From Streptomyces lomondensis (lineage in GTDB: Bacteria > Actinomycetota > Actinomycetes > Streptomycetales > Streptomycetaceae): a DNA stretch of 64,000 bases. The notes below the pieces were generated by a model. The model was given only the letters and a program-made list of their open reading frames with translations. It did not search any database and was not told where the DNA came from. The DNA is taken from contig NZ_BMWC01000010.1 in assembly GCF_014651035.1 (NCBI RefSeq), positions 62,001 through 126,000 on the forward strand. The letters run 5' to 3'. Shown here in pieces: positions 46,542 to 56,587 of the stretch (position 1 is its first letter; each line of letters opens with the position of its first letter). The translations under genes and the position numbers were made by a program.

Positions 46542-47630
46542 ATGACGACGCCCACGATCGAGCTCAAGCCGTCCGCCAACCCGCTCTCCGCCGCGGAACG
46601 GGAGGCAATCCTGGCCAACCCCGGGTTCGGCCGCCACTTCACCGACCACATGGTGACGATCAAGTGGACGGAGGGCCGCGGCTGGCACGACGGCCAGCTC
46701 GTGCCGTACGCGCCGATCTCCCTCGACCCCGCCACCACGGTCCTGCACTACGCGCAGGAGATCTTCGAGGGGCTGAAGGCCTACCGCCGCCCCGACGGCT
46801 CGGTCGCCACGTTCCGCCCGGAGAAGAACGCCGAGCGCTTCCAGCGGTCCGCGCGGCGGCTGGCGATGCCCGAGCTGCCGGTCGAGACGTTCATCGAGGC
46901 GTGCGACGCCCTGGTGAGGCAGGACAAGGCATGGGTCCCGGCGCACGGCGGTGAGGAGTCCCTCTACCTGCGCCCGTTCATGATCGCGACCGAGGTCGGG
47001 CTGGGTGTGAAGCCGGCCAACGAGTACCTGTTCCTGGTGATCGCCTCCCCGGCCGGCGCGTACTTCCCGGGCGGTGTGAAGCCGGTCTCCATCTGGGTCT
47101 CCGAGGACCGCGTCCGCGCCGTCCCCGGCGGCATGGGCGACGCCAAGACGGGCGGCAACTACGCGGCGTCCCTCCTCGCGCAGGCCGAGGCCGCGACCAA
47201 GGGCTGCGACCAGGTCTGCTACCTCGACGCCGTGGAGCACCAGTGGGTCGAGGAGCTCGGCGGCATGAACCTGTACTTCGTGTACGGCGACAAGATCGTC
47301 ACCCCGTCCCTCACCGGCTCGATCCTGGAGGGCGTCACGCGCGACTCCCTGCTCACCGTCGCGCGTGACCTCGGCTACGAGGCCGAGGAGGGCCGGATCT
47401 CGGTCGACCAGTGGCAGCGGGACTCGGAGAACGGGTCGCTCACCGAGGTGTTCGCCTGCGGTACGGCCGCGGTGATCACGCCGGTCGGGACGGTCAAGCG
47501 GGCCGGGGCGGAGTGGAAGCAGAGTGGGGGTGAGCCGGGCGAGGTCACGCTGCGGCTGCGGCAGGCGCTGCTGGATATTCAGCGGGGTACGGCTGCGGAC
47601 CCGCACGGCTGGATGCACCAGCTGGGCTGA
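46542..47630 (+). CDS. ilvE: branched-chain amino acid aminotransferase
   Basis: PLP-dependent class IV aminotransferase (362 residues) that carries out the last step of valine, leucine and isoleucine synthesis. Diagnostic sequences are [20 protein letters not shown], the PLP lysine region [20 protein letters not shown], and [23 protein letters not shown] at 46542; GAAGGA lies about ten bases upstream. The 243 bases between leuB and ilvE hold the leuB terminator. A Leu/Val/Ile-rich stretch just before ilvE has no start codon in frame, so I do not call a leader peptide. Confidence 0.96.
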
Positions 47631-47671: not shown

Positions 47672-49123
47672 CTATGCCCACCCGCCACCCGAAGCGGTTG
47701 GGCTGGACGTACGACTTGCCTCATCGGCTCCGCGCTTCGCTGAAACCGTGCCCGGAGCCGACAGCCCATACGCCGCCCCGCCCACCAGCCCCGACAGCAG
47801 GAAGCTCACGTCCACCCCGCCGGTGAGCGCCAGCAGCGGGCCCTCGTACGACGGCAGGGACACCGCCAGGACGCCGACGGTCGCGCCGGCCGCCCAGGAG
47901 AGGGTCGCCGGGACGTTCCAGCCGGCGCGGTACCAGTAGACGCCGCCCCGCGCGCGGCGGTTGAAGACCTGGAGGGCATCCGCGTCGTACACCCCGCGGC
48001 AGCGGGCGAAGCCGATCAGGGTGATGACCGCCCAGGGTGTGCCGATCGCGGTCAGGAGGAGCACGAAGGACGTCATCGCGTCCTGGGCCGTCGAGAACCA
48101 GTGCCCGGCGAAGACCGCGGCCGTGGCCACCACGGCGACCACGTACGTCGCCCGGGCCCGTGACGCGCGCGGCAGGATCGCGTCCAGGTCGAGGCCCATC
48201 GAGTACAGCATCAGACCCGCGTTGCCGACCGAGCCCGCCGAGGCCGCGAGCAGCAGCGGGACGAGGTACCAGCCGGGCGCGGCGGCGACGAGCGGACCCG
48301 CGTAGTCGAGGGCCGCCCCGGCCGCGTACGCCGTGAACGTGCCGAACAGCTGCGGCACCAGCAGGCCCAGCATCAGTCCCAGCCAGGTCGCGTGCAGCAC
48401 CCGGCGGGAGGAGTGGCGGGCCGGGGAGATGTAGCGGGTGTAGTCGCCGAGCAGGGTGATGAAGGCGATCGGGCCGGACAGCCCGGCCGCCACGGCCGCG
48501 AGCAGCCAGGTCGGCCAGAACCCGCCCAGCAGATAGCCGCCGGCCTCCGGCAGCGCGCCGGTCGTGAAGTCGGGGGCGTAGGCGATCACACCGAGCGCCA
48601 GCAGTGCCGTCATGCCGAACGCCAGGGCCCGGGACATGGCGAGCAGCACCCGGTAGCCGTAGATCGCGCCCGCCACCGTGGCCGCCGCGAGCAGCCCGTA
48701 GACGATCCCGTACGACAGGTCGCGCTGCGGCAGACCGGCCAGCCGGCCCAGCACGCCCACCATCACGTCACCGCCGATCCACACGGTCAGCGCGGTGTAG
48801 CCGAGGGCCAGGAGCAGGCCGACCACCGAGCCGACCAGGCGGCCCCGGACGCCGAACTGGGCGCCGGAGGAGGTCGACAGGTTGGTGCCGGTGCGCAGCG
48901 AGACCAGCGCCAGGGGAGCCGTGAAGACCACGCCCACCACCGTGCCCGCCACGACCGCGCTGACCGACGACCACCAGTCCAGGCCGAAGGACGGCGGCAG
49001 CCAGCCGAAGACGATCACGCCCAGGCAGAGGTTGGAGCCGAGCAGGATCGAGACGAGGTCGCGCGGCCCGCTGGTCCGCTCCTCCTCGGGGATGGTGTCG
49101 ACTCCGCGCTGTTCGATCGGCAT
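47672..49123 (-). CDS. NCS1-family permease (cytosine/allantoin/hydantoin type)
   Basis: A 483-residue permease with about twelve helices. Near the N-terminus it reads GPRDLVSILLGSNLCLGVIV, and an aromatic-rich GFWPTWLLAAVAAGLSGPIA region and DYTRYISPARHSSRR loop follow, all typical of the CodB branch of NCS1 transporters. Substrates of the family are nitrogen-rich compounds such as cytosine, allantoin and hydantoins. It is divergent from the urease-like genes and shares a duplicated operator with them, so it probably imports the nitrogen source that pathway uses. ATG at 49123 with GAGGGAG upstream. Confidence 0.87.
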   Translation of the reverse strand: MPIEQRGVDTIPEEERTSGPRDLVSILLGSNLCLGVIVFGWLPPSFGLDWWSSVSAVVAGTVVGVVFTAPLALVSLRTGTNLSTSSGAQFGVRGRLVGSVVGLLLALGYTALTVWIGGDVMVGVLGRLAGLPQRDLSYGIVYGLLAAATVAGAIYGYRVLLAMSRALAFGMTALLALGVIAYAPDFTTGALPEAGGYLLGGFWPTWLLAAVAAGLSGPIAFITLLGDYTRYISPARHSSRRVLHATWLGLMLGLLVPQLFGTFTAYAAGAALDYAGPLVAAAPGWYLVPLLLAASAGSVGNAGLMLYSMGLDLDAILPRASRARATYVVAVVATAAVFAGHWFSTAQDAMTSFVLLLTAIGTPWAVITLIGFARCRGVYDADALQVFNRRARGGVYWYRAGWNVPATLSWAAGATVGVLAVSLPSYEGPLLALTGGVDVSFLLSGLVGGAAYGLSAPGTVSAKRGADEASRTSSPTASGGGWA

Positions 49124-49138
49124 GCTTGTCTCCCTCGG

Positions 49139-49154
49139 TTAGAGCGACGTTCAA
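49139..49154. promoter_or_regulatory. operator copy 1 (permease side)
   Basis: TTAGAGCGACGTTCAA, matching the copy at 49207-49225 in all but a few positions. It lies directly downstream of the permease -10, where repressor binding would block initiation. Confidence 0.65.
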
Positions 49155-49182
49155 TGTGATAGGCGCGGTGGTCCGCCGTCAA
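49153..49182 (-). promoter_or_regulatory. permease promoter
   Basis: On the minus strand, TTGACG (49182-49177) and CACATT (49158-49153) are separated by 18 bases and lead straight into operator copy 1. Confidence 0.5.
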
Positions 49183-49206
49183 CCTTTCGGGCAAGGGGAA
49201 TTTATG

Positions 49207-49225
49207 TTTAGAGTGACGTTCTAAA
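49207..49225. promoter_or_regulatory. operator copy 2 (urease side)
   Basis: TTTAGAGTGACGTTCTAAA, a palindrome with perfect TTTAGA/TCTAAA arms. It sits 13 bases before the urease start codon. A possible -10, TATGTT at 49203-49208, overlaps its left end. The likely ligand is the TetR protein encoded at the end of this gene run. Confidence 0.7.
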
Positions 49226-49238
49226 CGGAGGGAGTGAC

Positions 49239-49943
49239 ATGCGGCTGACCCCGACCGAACGCGACCGGCTGCTGCTCTTCGGCGCCGCCGAGCTCGCCCG
49301 CGCCCGCAGGGCCAGGGGACTGCGGCTCAACGTCCCCGAGGCGACCGCGCTCATCGCCGACACGGTGTGCGAGGCCGCCCGGGACGGCAGGCGGCTCGCG
49401 GAGGCCGTCGAGGCCGCCCGGTCCGTCCTCGGTCCCGGCGACGTGCTGCCCGGGGTCGCCGACGTCGTCACCGAGGTGCACGTCGAGGCGGTCTTCGACG
49501 ACGGCTCGCGGCTCGCGGTCGTCTCCGACCCCCTCGGCGGCGGATCGGGGCCGGACGCCCCGGGCGCCCTGCTGCCCGGGCCGGAACACGCCGAGCCGGA
49601 GCCGGTCGAGCGGCTGACCGTCACCAACACCGCGACCGTGCCCGTCTCCGTCACCTCCCACTTCCACTTCTTCGAGGCCAACCCGCGCCTCGACTTCGCA
49701 CGGGAGAGGGCCTACGGGATGCGGCTCGCCGTGCCCGCGGGGTCCTCCGTGCGGTTCGGGCCGGGGGAGAGCGTCGAGGTGTGGCTCGTGCCCATCGGGG
49801 GCGAGCGGATCGCGATCGGGTTCGCCGGACTCGTCGACGGGCCCCTGGACGCGCCGGGCGCCCGCGAGGAGGCGCTGCGCCGCGCCGCCGCCTGCGGCTA
49901 CCTCGGCGCGGCGGACACACCTGACCAGGAGGTCGAGCGATGA
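49239..49943 (+). CDS. ureAB: urease gamma-beta fusion subunit
   Basis: A 234-residue fusion. Residues 1-100 are gamma-like (MRLTPTERDRLLLFGAAELA, LNVPEATALIADTVCEAARD, EVHVEAVFDDGSRLAVVSDP). Residues about 125-215 are beta-like (VTSHFHFFEANPRLDFARER, GMRLAVPAGSSVRFGPGE). Between them is a Gly/Pro-rich linker. The ATG follows CGGAGGGAG at a good distance. The stop overlaps the ureC start by ATGA. It belongs to a divergent paralogue of urease rather than the standard ureABC-FGD cluster, because no accessory genes are nearby. Confidence 0.9.
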   Translation: MRLTPTERDRLLLFGAAELARARRARGLRLNVPEATALIADTVCEAARDGRRLAEAVEAARSVLGPGDVLPGVADVVTEVHVEAVFDDGSRLAVVSDPLGGGSGPDAPGALLPGPEHAEPEPVERLTVTNTATVPVSVTSHFHFFEANPRLDFARERAYGMRLAVPAGSSVRFGPGESVEVWLVPIGGERIAIGFAGLVDGPLDAPGAREEALRRAAACGYLGAADTPDQEVER

Positions 49944-51649
49944 GCCGCCCAGGAGGCCACCCCGCCGAGGCCCGCCGCCTCACCACGTACGAGTACGCCG
50001 CCACCCACGGCCCCCGCGCCGGCGACCGTATCCGCCTCGGCGACTCCGGGCTGACCGTCCGCGTCGAGTCCGACTCCCAGCGCTACGGCGACGAGTTCCT
50101 CGCCGGGTTCGGCAAGACCGCCCGCGACGGGCTGCACCTCAAGGCCGCCGCCGTCCGGGACACCTGCGACGTCGTGATCAGCAACGTCGTGGTGATCGAC
50201 GCCGTGCAGGGCATCCGGAAGGTGTCCATCGGCATCCGCGAGGGCCGGATCTGCTCGATCGGGCGGGCCGGGAACCCGGACACCCTCGACGGGGTCGACG
50301 TCGTCGTCGGGACGGGAACGTCGATCGTGTCCGGGGAGGGGCTCATCGCCACCGCCGGGGCCGTCGACACCCACGTCCATCTGCTGTCGCCGCGCGTCAT
50401 GGAGGCCTCGCTGGCATCCGGCGTGACCACCATCATCGGGCAGGAGTTCGGGCCCGTGTGGGGCGTCGGCGTCAACTCGCCCTGGGCGCTGCGGCACGCG
50501 TTCGGCGCGTTCGACGCCTGGCCGGTCAACATCGGCTTCCTGGGCCGGGGTTCGTCGTCCTCCGCCGCGCCCCTGGTCGAGGCCCTCGCCGAGGGCGGCG
50601 CCTGCGGCTTCAAGGTGCACGAGGACATGGGCGCCCACACCCGCGCCCTGGACACCGCCCTGCGCGTCGCCGAGGAGCACGACGTCCAAGTGGCCCTGCA
50701 CAGCGACGGCTTGAACGAGTGCCTCTCCGTGGAGGACACCCTGCGCGTGCTGGAGGGCCGGACCATCCACGCCTTCCACATCGAGGGCTGCGGCGGCGGG
50801 CATGTCCCCAACGTCCTGAAGATGGCGGGCGTGCCGAACGTCATCGGCTCCTCCACCAACCCGACCCTGCCCTTCGGCCGGGACGCCGTCGCCGAGCACT
50901 ACGGCATGATCGTCTCCGTCCACGACCTCAAGACCGACCTGCCCGGCGACGCCGCCATGGCCCGGGACCGCATCCGCGCCGGCACCATGGGCGCCGAGGA
51001 CGTCCTGCACGACCTGGGCGCGATCGGCATCACCTCGTCGGACGCGCAGGGCATGGGCCGCGCGGGCGAGACGGTCCGCCGTACGTTCGCGATGGCCGGG
51101 AAGATGAAGGCCGAGCTCGGCGCCCCCGACGCGCACGACAACGCACGCGTCCTGCGCTACATCGCCAAGCTGACCATCAACCCGGCCATCGCGCACGGAC
51201 TTTCGCACGAGGTCGGGTCGATCGAGACCGGCAAGCTCGCCGACATCGTCCTGTGGCGGCCGGAGTTCTTCGGCGCCAAACCGCAGCTGGTGCTGAAGGC
51301 CGGCTTCCCGGCCTACGGCGTGACCGGCGACCCGAACGCGGCGACCGACACCTGCGAACCCCTCGTGCTGGGCCCGCAGTTCGGCGCCCACGGGGCGACA
51401 CCGGCCGACCTCTCGGTGGCGTTCGTCGCCCGGGCCGCCCTCGACCAGGGGCACGACTGGCTTCCGACCCGCCGCCGCCGGGTCGCCGTGCGCGGCACGC
51501 GCGGCATCGGCCCGGCCGACCTGCGCCTCAACTCCCGTACCGGGGCCGTCGACGTGGACCAGCGCACCGGCCTGGTCACCCTCGACGGCGAGCCGCTGCG
51601 CTCGGAGCCCGCCGAGTCCGTCTCCCTCAACCGTCTCTACTTCCTCTGA
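49940..51649 (+). CDS. ureC: atypical urease alpha subunit
   Basis: A 569-residue amidohydrolase of the urease alpha family. The nickel ligands and catalytic residues align with Klebsiella urease: His145 and His147 (DTHVHLL), carbamylated Lys225 and His227 (GFKVHEDMG), His254 (ALHSDGLNE), His280 (FHIEGCGGGH) and Asp368 (SSDAQGMGR). The mobile flap differs: the usual Cys-His-His is Val327-His328-Asp329, so the general acid His is kept while the flanking Cys and second His are lost. Other active-site regions are also shifted (HLLSPR in place of HFI-type sequence). It may hydrolyse urea poorly or use another ureido compound. No ureD, E, F or G is in the window. Confidence 0.9.
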   Translation: MSRPGGHPAEARRLTTYEYAATHGPRAGDRIRLGDSGLTVRVESDSQRYGDEFLAGFGKTARDGLHLKAAAVRDTCDVVISNVVVIDAVQGIRKVSIGIREGRICSIGRAGNPDTLDGVDVVVGTGTSIVSGEGLIATAGAVDTHVHLLSPRVMEASLASGVTTIIGQEFGPVWGVGVNSPWALRHAFGAFDAWPVNIGFLGRGSSSSAAPLVEALAEGGACGFKVHEDMGAHTRALDTALRVAEEHDVQVALHSDGLNECLSVEDTLRVLEGRTIHAFHIEGCGGGHVPNVLKMAGVPNVIGSSTNPTLPFGRDAVAEHYGMIVSVHDLKTDLPGDAAMARDRIRAGTMGAEDVLHDLGAIGITSSDAQGMGRAGETVRRTFAMAGKMKAELGAPDAHDNARVLRYIAKLTINPAIAHGLSHEVGSIETGKLADIVLWRPEFFGAKPQLVLKAGFPAYGVTGDPNAATDTCEPLVLGPQFGAHGATPADLSVAFVARAALDQGHDWLPTRRRRVAVRGTRGIGPADLRLNSRTGAVDVDQRTGLVTLDGEPLRSEPAESVSLNRLYFL

Positions 51650-51658
51650 GGATCAACG

Positions 51659-52696
51659 ATGTCCGCAGCCGCCGACGGCTTCCGCATGCCCGCCGAGTGG
51701 GCCCCGCACGAGCGCACCTGGATGGCCTGGCCGGGCCCGAACCCCACCTTCGACGACCCGGGAGGTCTCGCCGCCGCCCGGGTCGCCTGGGCCGCGGTCG
51801 CCCGGGCCGTCCGCCGCTTCGAACCGGTGACGGTGGTGTGCGGGCCGGGCCAGTCCGGTGAGGCGCGGGCGCTGCTGGGGGAGGGGATCGAAACGGTCGA
51901 GCGGGACCTCGACGACGCGTGGATGCGGGACATCGGCCCGACCTTCCTCACCGACGGCAAGGGCCGACTGGCCGCCGTCGACTGGACGTTCAACGGCTGG
52001 GGCGCCCAGGAGTGGGCCCGCTGGGAGCACGACGCGAAGATCGCCGCGCACGTCGCGGACCTCGCGGGGGCCCGGACGTACGCCTCCCGGCTCGTCAACG
52101 AGGGCGGGGCGATCCACGTGGACGGCGAGGGCACGGTCCTGCTGACCGAGACCGTCCAGCTCGGCCCCGAGCGCAACCCGGACTGGACGCGGGAACGGGT
52201 CGAGGCCGAGATCCACGCCCAGCTCGGCACCCGCAAGGCGATCTGGCTGCCACGCGGCCTGACCGGCGACTATCCGCCCCACGGCTTCGGCACCCTCGGC
52301 CACGTCGACATCGTCGCCGCCTTCGCCCGCCCGGGTGTCGTCGTGGCGCACACGCAACCGGACCCCGCCCACCCCGACCACGAGGTGACCAAGGAGGTCG
52401 TCGGCCTGCTGAGGTCCCAGACGGACGCGCGGGGGCGGCGCCTGGAGGTCGTGGAGGTCCCCGCCCCGACCGTCCTGGAGGCCGACGGCCACTGGGCCGA
52501 CTACTCCTACATCAACCACTACCTCTGCAACGGCGGGGTCGTGCTGTGCGGCTTCGGCGACCCGCGCGACGAGATCGCGGCCGGGATCTTCCGCCGGCTG
52601 TTCCCCGAGCGGACCGTGACGCTGGTGGACGCCCGTACGATCTTCGCGGGCGGTGGAGGCATCCACTGCGTCACGCAGCAGCAACCAAGGATCTAG
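51659..52696 (+). CDS. aguA: agmatine deiminase (PPAD-type)
   Basis: A 345-residue guanidino-group hydrolase that converts agmatine to N-carbamoylputrescine and ammonia. Motifs: PAEWAPHERTWMAWPGPN at the N-terminus, DDAWMRDIGPTFL (substrate Asp), HGFGTLGHVDIVAAF (His) and the nucleophile Cys337 in GGGGIHCVTQQQP. Starts nine bases after ureC, so it is in the same operon. Related enzymes act on other guanidino compounds, so agmatine is the best guess, not proven. Confidence 0.9.
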   Translation: MSAAADGFRMPAEWAPHERTWMAWPGPNPTFDDPGGLAAARVAWAAVARAVRRFEPVTVVCGPGQSGEARALLGEGIETVERDLDDAWMRDIGPTFLTDGKGRLAAVDWTFNGWGAQEWARWEHDAKIAAHVADLAGARTYASRLVNEGGAIHVDGEGTVLLTETVQLGPERNPDWTRERVEAEIHAQLGTRKAIWLPRGLTGDYPPHGFGTLGHVDIVAAFARPGVVVAHTQPDPAHPDHEVTKEVVGLLRSQTDARGRRLEVVEVPAPTVLEADGHWADYSYINHYLCNGGVVLCGFGDPRDEIAAGIFRRLFPERTVTLVDARTIFAGGGGIHCVTQQQPRI

Positions 52697-52704
52697 GAGC
52701 GCAC

Positions 52705-53304
52705 ATGGCCGGTGGGCGAAGGCAGGCCCCGCCCCGCGAGGACGTCCTCGCCGCCGCCATGGAGATGATCGCCGACCGCGGTCTGGAGAAGCTCACCATG
52801 GCGGCGCTCGGCCGCGAGGTCGGGATGAGCAGCGGGCACCTGCTCTACTACTTCGGCTCCAAGGACGAGTTGCTGCTGCGCACCCTGGAGTGGAGCGAGG
52901 GCCGGCTCGGTGCCGAGCGCGGACGGCTGCTGACCCGCCCCGCCACGGCCCGCGAACGCCTCGACGCCTACGTCGACCTGTACGTCCCCGACGGCCACGG
53001 CGACCCGCACTGGACCCTCTGGCTGGAGGTCTGGAACCGTTCGAAGAAGGCCGACGACGACGCCCGCGACCGGCAGGCCGCCATCGAGGGCGCCTGGCAC
53101 CGCGACCTGGTCGCCCTGCTCGCCGAGGGCATCTCCCGGGGCGAGTTCCGCCGCGTCGACCCGGACCGCTTCGCCGCCCGCCTGCGGGCGCTGCTGGACG
53201 GCTTCTCCATCCACGTGGCGATCGGCCTGCGCGGCACGGACCGGGCCCAAGTCCTGGCGCACGTGCACGAGTTCCTCGCCGACAGCCTCCTCGCGGACGC
53301 CTGA
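52705..53304 (+). CDS. TetR-family regulator of the urease/agmatine deiminase operon
   Basis: A 199-residue repressor whose helix-turn-helix reads LEKLTMAALGREVGMSSGHL followed by LYYFGSKDELLLRTL. The C-terminal half resembles TetR_C regulators of nitrogen and polyamine compounds (HWTLWLEVWNRSKKADDDAR). It is the last gene of the run that starts at ureAB, with AGGAG before its ATG. It probably binds the paired operators at 49139-49154 and 49207-49225 and controls both the operon and the divergent permease. Confidence 0.88.
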   Translation: MAGGRRQAPPREDVLAAAMEMIADRGLEKLTMAALGREVGMSSGHLLYYFGSKDELLLRTLEWSEGRLGAERGRLLTRPATARERLDAYVDLYVPDGHGDPHWTLWLEVWNRSKKADDDARDRQAAIEGAWHRDLVALLAEGISRGEFRRVDPDRFAARLRALLDGFSIHVAIGLRGTDRAQVLAHVHEFLADSLLADA

Positions 53305-54982: not shown

Positions 54983-56587
54983 ATGACCGCTACCAGCGAC
55001 CTCGACGATTCGTTCCACGTCTTCGACACCACCCTGCGCGACGGCGCCCAGCGGGAGGGCATCAACCTCACCGTCGCGGACAAGCTGGCCATCGCACGGC
55101 ACCTGGACGACTTCGGCGTGGGCTTCATCGAGGGCGGCTGGCCGGGCGCCAACCCCCGCGACACCGAGTTCTTCGCCCGCGCCCAGCAGGAGATCGACTT
55201 CCGGCACGCCCAGCTGGTCGCGTTCGGCTCCACCCGCCGCGCCGGCACCACCGCGGGGCAGGACCCGCAGGTCAAGGCCCTCCTGGAGTCCGGCGCGCAG
55301 GTGATCACGCTGGTCGCCAAGTCGCACGACCGCCATGTCGAGCTCGCCCTGCGCACCACCCTCGACGAGAACCTGGCGATGGTCCGCGACACGGTGTCCT
55401 TCCTGCGGGAGCAGGGCCGCCGCGTCTTCGTCGACTGCGAGCACTTCTTCGACGGCTACCGCGCCAACCCCGAGTACGCGAAGTCGGTCGTCCGTACGGC
55501 GTCGGAGGCCGGCGCGGACGTCGTCGTCCTGTGCGACACCAACGGCGGCATGCTCCCGGCGCAGATCCAGGCCGTCGTCTCCACGGTCCTCGCCGACACC
55601 GGCGCCCGGCTCGGCATCCACGCCCAGGACGACACCGGCTGCGCGGTGGCGAACACGCTGGCCGCCGTCGACGCGGGCGCGACCCATGTGCAGTGCACGG
55701 CCAACGGCTACGGCGAGCGCGTCGGCAACGCCAACCTCTTCCCGGTCGTGGCGGCCCTGGAACTGAAGTACGGCAAGCAGGTCCTGCCCGCGGGCCACCT
55801 GCGCGAGATGACCCGCATCTCGCACGCCATCGCCGAGGTCGTCAACCTCACCCCCTCCACGCACCAGCCCTACGTCGGCGTCTCCGCCTTCGCGCACAAG
55901 GCCGGCCTGCACGCCTCGGCGATCAAGGTCGACCCGGACCTGTACCAGCACATCGACCCCGAGCGGGTCGGCAACACCATGCGGATGCTGGTCTCCGACA
56001 TGGCCGGCCGCGCCTCCATCGAGCTCAAGGGCAAGGAACTCGGCATCGACCTCGGCGGCGACCGCGAGCTGGTCGGCCGGGTCGTGGAGCGGGTGAAGGA
56101 GCGCGAGCTCAAGGGCTACACGTACGAGGCGGCCGACGCGTCCTTCGAACTCCTGCTGCGCACCGAGGTCCAGGGCAAGCCTCTGCGCTACTTCGAGGTC
56201 GAGTCCTGGCGTGCCATCGTCGAGGACCGGCCCGACGGGTCCCACGCCAACGAGGCCACCGTCAAGCTCTGGGCCAAGGGCGAGCGCATCGTCGCCACGG
56301 CCGAGGGCAACGGCCCGGTCAACGCCCTGGACCGGGCCCTGCGCGTGGGCCTGGAGAAGATCTACCCGCAGCTCGCCAAGCTGGACCTGGTGGACTACAA
56401 GGTCCGCATCCTGGAGGGCGTGCACGGCACCCAGTCCACGACCCGCGTCCTGATCTCCACGTCCGACGGCTCCGGCGAGTGGTCGACGGTGGGCGTCGCC
56501 GACAACGTCATCGCGGCGAGCTGGCAGGCCCTGGAGGACGCGTACACATACGGGTTGCTGCGCGCGGGGGTCGCTCCGGCCGAGTAG
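54983..56587 (+). CDS. cimA: citramalate synthase
   Basis: A 534-residue DRE-TIM metallolyase that condenses pyruvate with acetyl-CoA to citramalate, giving 2-oxobutyrate for isoleucine. The catalytic motif is FDTTLRDGAQREGINLTVAD, with metal-binding HAQDDTGCAVANTLAAVDAG and TAFGERVGNANLF-like sequence (here TANGYGERVGNANLFPV). The C-terminal LeuA dimer/regulatory domain starts near residue 400. The family also includes 2-isopropylmalate synthases. The length, the CimA-type pattern and the Ile-Ile leader favour citramalate synthase. ATG at 54983. Confidence 0.9.
   Translation: MTATSDLDDSFHVFDTTLRDGAQREGINLTVADKLAIARHLDDFGVGFIEGGWPGANPRDTEFFARAQQEIDFRHAQLVAFGSTRRAGTTAGQDPQVKALLESGAQVITLVAKSHDRHVELALRTTLDENLAMVRDTVSFLREQGRRVFVDCEHFFDGYRANPEYAKSVVRTASEAGADVVVLCDTNGGMLPAQIQAVVSTVLADTGARLGIHAQDDTGCAVANTLAAVDAGATHVQCTANGYGERVGNANLFPVVAALELKYGKQVLPAGHLREMTRISHAIAEVVNLTPSTHQPYVGVSAFAHKAGLHASAIKVDPDLYQHIDPERVGNTMRMLVSDMAGRASIELKGKELGIDLGGDRELVGRVVERVKERELKGYTYEAADASFELLLRTEVQGKPLRYFEVESWRAIVEDRPDGSHANEATVKLWAKGERIVATAEGNGPVNALDRALRVGLEKIYPQLAKLDLVDYKVRILEGVHGTQSTTRVLISTSDGSGEWSTVGVADNVIAASWQALEDAYTYGLLRAGVAPAE

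Follow-up and report, generated by a model that had tools for sequence, protein, structure and literature searches.

Within the 64-kb window analyzed here (the whole 64,000-nucleotide stretch of the Streptomyces lomondensis contig NZ_BMWC01000010.1, positions 62,001 to 126,000), a fused UreA-UreB subunit (UreAB), a UreC-like catalytic subunit, an agmatine-deiminase-family protein (AgDI), and a TetR regulator are encoded one behind the other and divergently from an NCS1-family permease. With moderate confidence, we propose that UreABC, an enzyme of the urease fold, hydrolyzes monosubstituted ureas (N-carbamoylputrescine being the likeliest substrate), acts after AgDI, and completes agmatine breakdown. 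The cluster would then be induced for the use of a guanidino compound, most probably agmatine: AgDI would convert the guanidino into a ureido group, with the imine nitrogen leaving as NH3, and so yield N-carbamoylputrescine or a close analogue; UreAB-UreC, with its shortened substrate loop and no flap cysteine, would hydrolytically cleave the resulting monosubstituted urea into an amine, CO2, and NH3, standing in for the nitrilase-type amidase AguB; and TetR would repress both transcription units via paired sites. A wider proposal is put forward tentatively, as a possibility short of an expectation: that an actinobacterial urease-fold group has left both urea and UreDFG, loads its own metal (perhaps not nickel), hydrolyzes monosubstituted ureas, takes the role of AguB in the breakdown of agmatine as a non-homologous replacement, and was drawn into one or more families of nonribosomal peptide synthetase (NRPS) operons. 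Metal loading free of accessory proteins would be the bolder part of this proposal. The enzyme group itself is real, conserved, and under-explained.

The association of UreC with AgDI extends well beyond the source genome (G000, 8.78 Mb, with the cluster on contig C10). In a Streptomyces sample made up of the best 80 of 576 candidates (named loci, some of them truncated), AgDI was next to UreC in 80/80, UreAB in 79/80, TetR in 79/80 (82 to 94% identical), and NCS1 in 60/80; because these loci are near copies of one another, they are not independent. In other genera, AgDI stands behind UreC in genomes G064, G068, G069, and G071, and in G002 it stands ahead of UreAB, beside a different NCS1 permease (27% identity). 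In a second actinobacterial class, where 20 short-loop loci were inspected with 1.5-kb flanks as far as the contig allowed (longer flanks for 11), AgDI was adjacent in four, behind UreC in G303 and before UreAB in G672, G614, and G691. Since the pair stays together across several gene orders, these data point to a functional link between UreC and AgDI. Second short-loop copies also keep deiminase company: those of G004 and G038 are clustered with TetR genes, a transporter of the Opp type, and several deiminases, of which some have N termini that resemble leaders by eye, and that of G012 sits between two deiminases. AgDI of the window carries the motifs WMRD, NEGG, GHVD, and GGGIHC, whose Cys, His, Glu, and Asp residues we take to be catalytic. 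As side observations, the clusters at loci L154, L155, L156, L157, L159, and L160 hold up to five agmatine-deiminase paralogues with an Opp-type transporter and several TetR genes, and several of these deiminases have leader- or lipoprotein-like N termini (by eye), so that deimination may perhaps be extracellular there; part of the Streptomyces loci (L036, L037, L048, and L049) have an additional open reading frame between AgDI and TetR, of about 165 amino acids and with cysteine pairs where inspected.

What occupies the place of UreC elsewhere bears on the substrate. G067, in which no UreC was found at an E value of 0.001, has a cluster of the G004/G038 type, with transporter, TetR, and three deiminases (one apparently cytosolic, two apparently exported) that are roughly 55 to 75% identical to their counterparts, and here an AguB-like amidase shares 4 bp with the deiminase; its closest solved relative is N-carbamoylputrescine amidohydrolase at 180 bits, the next enzyme scoring 125. 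A second case is a plasmid of Tsukamurella tyrosinosolvens (L212), the best plasmid match to the window AgDI (54% identical), where an AguB-like nitrilase overlaps AgDI by 4 bp; N-carbamoylputrescine amidohydrolase leads the next enzyme by a narrow margin (122 versus 111 bits), and the operon lies near genes for an aminobutyraldehyde dehydrogenase and a primary-amine oxidase. This was the one nitrilase among four plasmid AgDI loci examined: the next match, on an Arthrobacter plasmid, is accompanied by TetR and a permease of the cytosine type, with no nitrilase annotated in the part inspected, and an Azospirillum plasmid locus has polyamine-transporter genes. G015 holds a cluster of the G067 type with neither UreC nor an AguB-like gene. 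On sequence, then, enzymes of the nitrilase type that cleaves R-NH-CO-NH2 can take over the reaction that follows deimination, and it is because of this that we prefer a monosubstituted urea over urea. Polyamine-type ABC transporter genes lie tail to tail with UreC in G622 and in three close genomes (f26); the best models are Pot proteins, with the ATPase alone passing a cutoff. The AguB model TIGR03381 was matched above its cutoff in 0/33 genomes and below it in 33/33, so the model cannot separate AguB from its kin. Two AguB-like genes on contig C3 of the source genome were also considered as the missing step and rejected; judged by eye, their neighbors are a permease, an aminotransferase, and a hydantoinase-like gene, and we take the two genes to serve pyrimidine breakdown. 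They are only 35 to 37% like the G067 protein, and one of them scores 261 on the AguB model.

The active site of UreC combines strict conservation with a group-specific change. The six metal-ligand positions (H145, H147, K225, H254, H280, and D368; the lysine is carbamylated in urease) as well as H227, H328, and R344, to which we assign the roles that we presume for them in known ureases, are all present in the window protein, and they are invariant in an alignment of 129 distinct UreC sequences with at least 60% identity to it (itself included). The original prediction had already described the nickel ligands and His328 as kept and the flap as Val-His-Asp, and the residue alignment bears this out; it had not mentioned the shortened loop at residues 164 to 182. 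In 125/129 sequences, small variants counted, this loop, which follows the HxH strand, reads GQEFGPVWGVGVNS----PW where ordinary ureases have GGGTGPAxGTxATTxTPGxW, and the four plasmid sequences have SQNFGPTWGCGVT with the same gap. We take this stretch to be the one that would hold Ala167 (Klebsiella aerogenes numbering) or Ala170 (Sporosarcina pasteurii), whose carbonyl presumably holds the distal urea nitrogen. At flap position 327, V occurs in 116 sequences, A in 10, S in 3, and C never, and H328 is found in 129/129. The flap triplet was nevertheless dropped as chief evidence, since ordinary ureases vary there too: structure 4z42, which we take to be from Yersinia, aligns with C-H-N. In the second class, 20/20 UreC proteins (45 to 65% identical to the window UreC) share the four-residue gap, a non-cysteine flap, and all metal and catalytic residues.

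Judged by its identity of about 50% to solved ureases, the window UreC has the urease fold. It is about 46 to 50% identical to ordinary ureases, scores 630 against the urease-alpha equivalog TIGR01792 (under the cutoff of 680), and passes the subfamily model NF009686 (742 versus 354). In a tree of 57 rows (two duplicate rows left out; quick search, LG+G4, no bootstrap), the 39 short-loop rows fall together (support 97) and the 16 ordinary ureases are set apart by a branch of support 100. L190 and L191 (genomes G625 and G718) represent a further, divergent type of UreC, whose short loop is not that of the group (MGYGGAFDLGIGP); both fall beside ordinary ureases on long branches, joins about which the tree program warns. 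Within the genus, short-loop UreC occurs in 32/60 genomes, fragmented in three (G039, G041, and G042), and two copies at separate places are seen in G004, G012, G038, and G447.

Maturation proteins were looked for as well, in the source genome and in other carriers. In the source genome, no ureD or ureF match and no ureG match over cutoff lies in the window; an ordinary ureC lies on contig C4 with ureF, ureG, and ureD behind it, which are the only ureF and ureD matches of the genome and the only ureG match over cutoff. The strain therefore has a maturation system though the locus has none, and the lack of accessory genes stated in the original prediction is true of the locus but not of the strain. 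In the second class, 42/299 genomes have UreC at an E value of at most 1e-100, and 34 chosen genomes were tested for UreG alone, with thirteen more UreC-positive genomes lying outside this test. UreG was found in 0/20 genomes whose only UreC at this threshold is short-loop (loop checked in 19; 11/20 at least 90% complete), in 9/9 chosen genomes with another UreC, and in 0/5 genomes without UreC at this threshold. The nine comprise seven with a checked ordinary-flap UreC (among them G313, which has a short-loop copy too), G625 (whose L190-type UreC is joined by another UreC adjacent to ureG), and G718 (the L191 type, the only one seen); loop checks covered neither this additional UreC of G625 nor G688. 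Genus g132 repeats the pattern on a small scale, with two short-loop genomes without UreG and an ordinary one with it. In the three f26 genomes, which are short-loop-only, UreG was found in 0/3 and UreF in 0/3, and UreD was not found in G098, the one in which it was searched. In many carriers, the metal site might thus be loaded without UreDFG.

Several observations weigh against our reading, and they are best considered together with the alternatives on which they bear. The deiminase could free urea (e.g., from guanidine) and UreABC, matured by the strain's UreDFG, could be a true urease, as would suit the retained metal ligands and general acid, the ureFGD set of the strain, and the way Streptomyces ure(AB)C is treated in passages of the literature, where it is counted under ureolysis (PMC5489568) or as urea-utilizing (PMC3293853). 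In three genomes, G064, G069, and G071, the short-loop type is the only UreC, and even so ureF, ureG, and ureD are retained as a set at another place, consistent with a requirement for maturation; given that UreG was not found in other carriers, accessory dependence may differ between branches, or these orphan sets may be relics. (In G064, the set lies beside genes that resemble purine-breakdown genes by eye, at L125.) Moreover, other UreC proteins scored about 1e-104 to 1e-139 in the second class, close enough to the threshold that a weaker ordinary UreC could be missed. In some UreC proteins with an ordinary C-H-H flap (L140, L193, L194, and L197), a different loop shows a three-residue gap, and loop length alone is therefore not diagnostic. 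All 32 short-loop carriers in the genus also have an ordinary ureC, a weak co-occurrence because 56/60 genus genomes have one anyway. Against a true urease stand the group-specific loop at the substrate site, the presence in the UreC slot of an AguB-like gene, whose kind of enzyme has monosubstituted ureas as substrates, the 20 carriers in which UreG was not found, and the polyamine-type transporter and putrescine-pathway neighbors; we regard this explanation as unlikely. The AguB-like proteins themselves score 237 (G067) and 186 (Tsukamurella) on the AguB model against a cutoff of 410, and the C3 gene described above, a nitrilase-family gene of the window's own genome in another context, reaches 261, above the G067 protein.

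The group could also be a ureido hydrolase family with several substrates, of which the window copy would act not on N-carbamoylputrescine but on an imported ureide or ureido acid, with the NCS1 permease as the importer. NCS1-type permeases do recur beside AgDI (in the window, in G002 and G004, and as the Arthrobacter "cytosine permease"), but NCS1 was not found in 20/80 loci, some of them truncated. AgDI scores 309 bits against the AguA model TIGR03380, under the cutoff of 381.8, and departs around GHVD and SYINH from the type found in Arabidopsis; for these reasons, its substrate may be other than agmatine. UreC overlaps a glycerate kinase gene by 1 to 4 bp in G636, G638, and G583, as if glyoxylate were made, which hints at a glyoxylate-yielding ureide substrate in this branch. 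In plasmid-borne NRPS operons of Embleya, Streptomyces NBC_00637, and S. anulatus there is a UreAB-UreC pair from another branch of the group, 65 to 67% identical to that of the window. Because surroundings differ (polyamine transporter, glycerate kinase, and NRPS genes), the short-loop group probably has more than one substrate. For the window copy, however, the Tsukamurella operon has an AgDI of the window type beside aminobutyraldehyde dehydrogenase, an enzyme of the putrescine pathway, and a substrate other than N-carbamoylputrescine seems to us improbable here. That UreABC is a decaying or non-catalytic remnant riding along with AgDI and TetR would accord with a locus without maturation genes and with G005 and G015, which keep AgDI-TetR with neither UreABC nor an adjacent AguB. 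In these two genomes the window's chromosomal site is without ureABC (G015 retains NCS1): ureABC is a piece that can be inserted or lost. A remnant is hard to reconcile with a metal site and catalytic residues that do not vary across 129 sequences and 20 more distant ones, with the presence of UreC in over half of the same-genus genomes and in distant lineages, and with retention of UreAB-UreC inside an NRPS-gene operon, and we give it very little credence. The original prediction had named loss of synteny between ureC and the deiminase in relatives as an outcome that would speak against a new function; the pair is kept in Streptomyces and some other lineages but is absent in the three f26 genomes, where AgDI lies elsewhere, and is limited to 4/20 loci in the second class. 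Its idea of a ureido substrate gains support from synteny, the AguB-like slot gene, the group loop, and the failure to find UreG in most tested carriers without ordinary urease; the flap argument on which it had leaned is weak alone.

The layout of the locus is as originally described, with genes and strands agreeing with Pfam and family profiles (Table 1). UreAB and UreC reading frames share 4 bp, and together with the short gaps before AgDI and TetR this suggests a single transcript for the four genes. TetR has a TetR_N plus a BetI-type C domain, and a palindrome lies in the divergent promoter gap. The duplicated operators of the original prediction are present as two sites between permease and ureAB, but only TTTAGAGTGACGTTCTAAA is a perfect palindrome. 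It is the sole site with at most three mismatches in the window; at most four mismatches give eight sites, TTTAGAGTGACGTTCTAAA and GTTAGAGCGACGTTCAATG among them, and GTTAGAGCGACGTTCAATG alone is unremarkable. In 77/77 usable Streptomyces loci (three of the 80 were dropped because the full UreAB start was missing), at least one site with at most four mismatches lies upstream of ureAB, and 58/77 have two or more. Where ureABC is lacking, two sites that each deviate from the consensus at one position are found in the NCS1-AgDI gap of G015, and G005 has weaker operator-like sites; on this basis, TetR most likely controls permease and deiminase operon whether ureABC is present or not. No site with at most one mismatch was found in the more distant loci L114, L116 to L119, L145 to L147, L154, L156, L158, and L160, and the TetR link is therefore limited to the Streptomyces locus type. 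No solved homologue of the NCS1 permease was found by sequence at an E value of 0.001. The cluster is flanked by an ilvE-like gene and a citramalate/isopropylmalate-synthase-like gene, both named by eye.

Table 1. Coordinates of features, in the window unless a genome (G), contig (C), or locus (L) is given
Feature	Position	Strand	Basis or remark
ilvE-like gene	46542-47630		flank; by eye
NCS1-family permease (cytosine/purine/allantoin type)	47672..49123	-	PF02133, 336.8 bits
Imperfect operator copy (predicted), permease side, GTTAGAGCGACGTTCAATG	49138..49156	.	four mismatches to palindrome
Operator (predicted), TTTAGAGTGACGTTCTAAA	49207..49225	.	six-base arms, 0 mismatches
Fused UreA-UreB subunit	49239..49943	+	PF00547 + PF00699; NF009671, 318 bits (cutoff 243)
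UreC-like catalytic subunit, short-loop group	49940..51649	+	PF00449 + PF01979
Rebuilt active-site loop, residues 164-182, TIIGQEFGPVWGVGVNSPW	50429..50485	+	four-residue gap versus ordinary ureases, 129/129
Flap, residues 323-334, MIVSVHDLKTDL (V327-H328-D329)	50906..50941	+	alignment of 129 UreC
Agmatine-deiminase-family protein (AgDI)	51659..52696	+	PF04371, 364.9 bits
BetI-like TetR regulator, putatively repressing both transcription units	52705..53304	+	PF00440 + PF13977
Citramalate/isopropylmalate-synthase-like gene	54983-56587		flank; by eye
ureF-ureG-ureD sets, no ureC adjoining	G069:C1:6753956-6755812; G071:C410:2278-4128; G064:C393:26062-28095; G068:C412:26914-28743		
Short-loop UreC + glycerate kinase	L200 8724-11497; L207 7588-10379; L201 4522-7295		PF02595 in G638; G583, G636 by eye
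Fused UreAB + short-loop UreC in NRPS operon	L145 11312-13698; L146 11318-13683; L147 11273-13653		
Window's chromosomal site with AgDI-TetR and without ureABC (G005, G015)	L161 7369-9124; L165 5884-9189		
UreC with metal transporter behind it (G672)	L204 6615-9241		

Two further surroundings of short-loop UreC deserve mention. Besides the UreAB-UreC pair, the NRPS operons contain genes for an FkbM-methyltransferase, two adenylation proteins, a condensation protein, a phosphotransferase, and a 528-amino-acid protein, with an annotated 2OG-Fe(II) oxygenase in NBC_00637 as well; the same pair is found in Kitasatospora NBC_01519 on an unannotated record. In G672, an Nramp-type metal transporter and an MgtE-N/CBS protein are encoded directly behind UreC, a single case and a possible hint at the metal of UreC.

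Urease is taken to be nearly urea-specific and dependent on nickel chaperones. The window system resembles it (UreABC, EC 3.5.1.5) in subunits, order, fusion type, metal-ligand positions, general-acid histidine, and arginine, and differs from it in the rewritten loop that is four residues shorter, the flap without cysteine, the locus without maturation genes, the score below the TIGR01792 cutoff, and the 20 short-loop carriers of the second class in which UreG was not found. With the AguA-AguB pathway it shares a deiminase of the family with its catalytic motifs, a proposed second step that would be that of AguB, and, at two loci, an AguB-like gene in the slot; it departs from that pathway in that the second enzyme is predicted to be a urease-fold metalloenzyme of the amidohydrolase superfamily and not a nitrilase, and in an AgDI under the AguA cutoff. 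The iron urease of Helicobacter hydrolyzes urea and is not known to need accessory proteins. Like that enzyme, UreA2B2, the window pair is a second urease-type enzyme beside an ordinary one; unlike it, it has an altered substrate loop and deiminase and polyamine-type neighbors. UreA2B2 is a precedent for a non-nickel urease, as described in PMC11541087. A cluster of ure(AB)C only has been reported for S. coelicolor and S. avermitilis (in a passage of PMC2492869), and passages of PMC3293853 place ureABC SCO5525-5526 with the urea-utilizing genes and SCO5527 with homologues from the pathway of arginine decarboxylase. SCO5525-5526 is probably the same gene pair, as matched by the labels in these papers and not by sequence; the excerpts treat it as urease genes, with no function of its own and no link to the deiminase. 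Among the listings and excerpts of open-license literature, we recognized no paper that assigns a function to the ure(AB)C-deiminase pair, or to ure(AB)C a function other than that of a urease.

If our reading is correct, the short-loop group would be a natural experiment on the basis of urease specificity and on the need for maturation proteins, and many "ureC" genes would have been misread in genome and soil-nitrogen surveys. It would also supply a second step for the breakdown of agmatine in Streptomyces.

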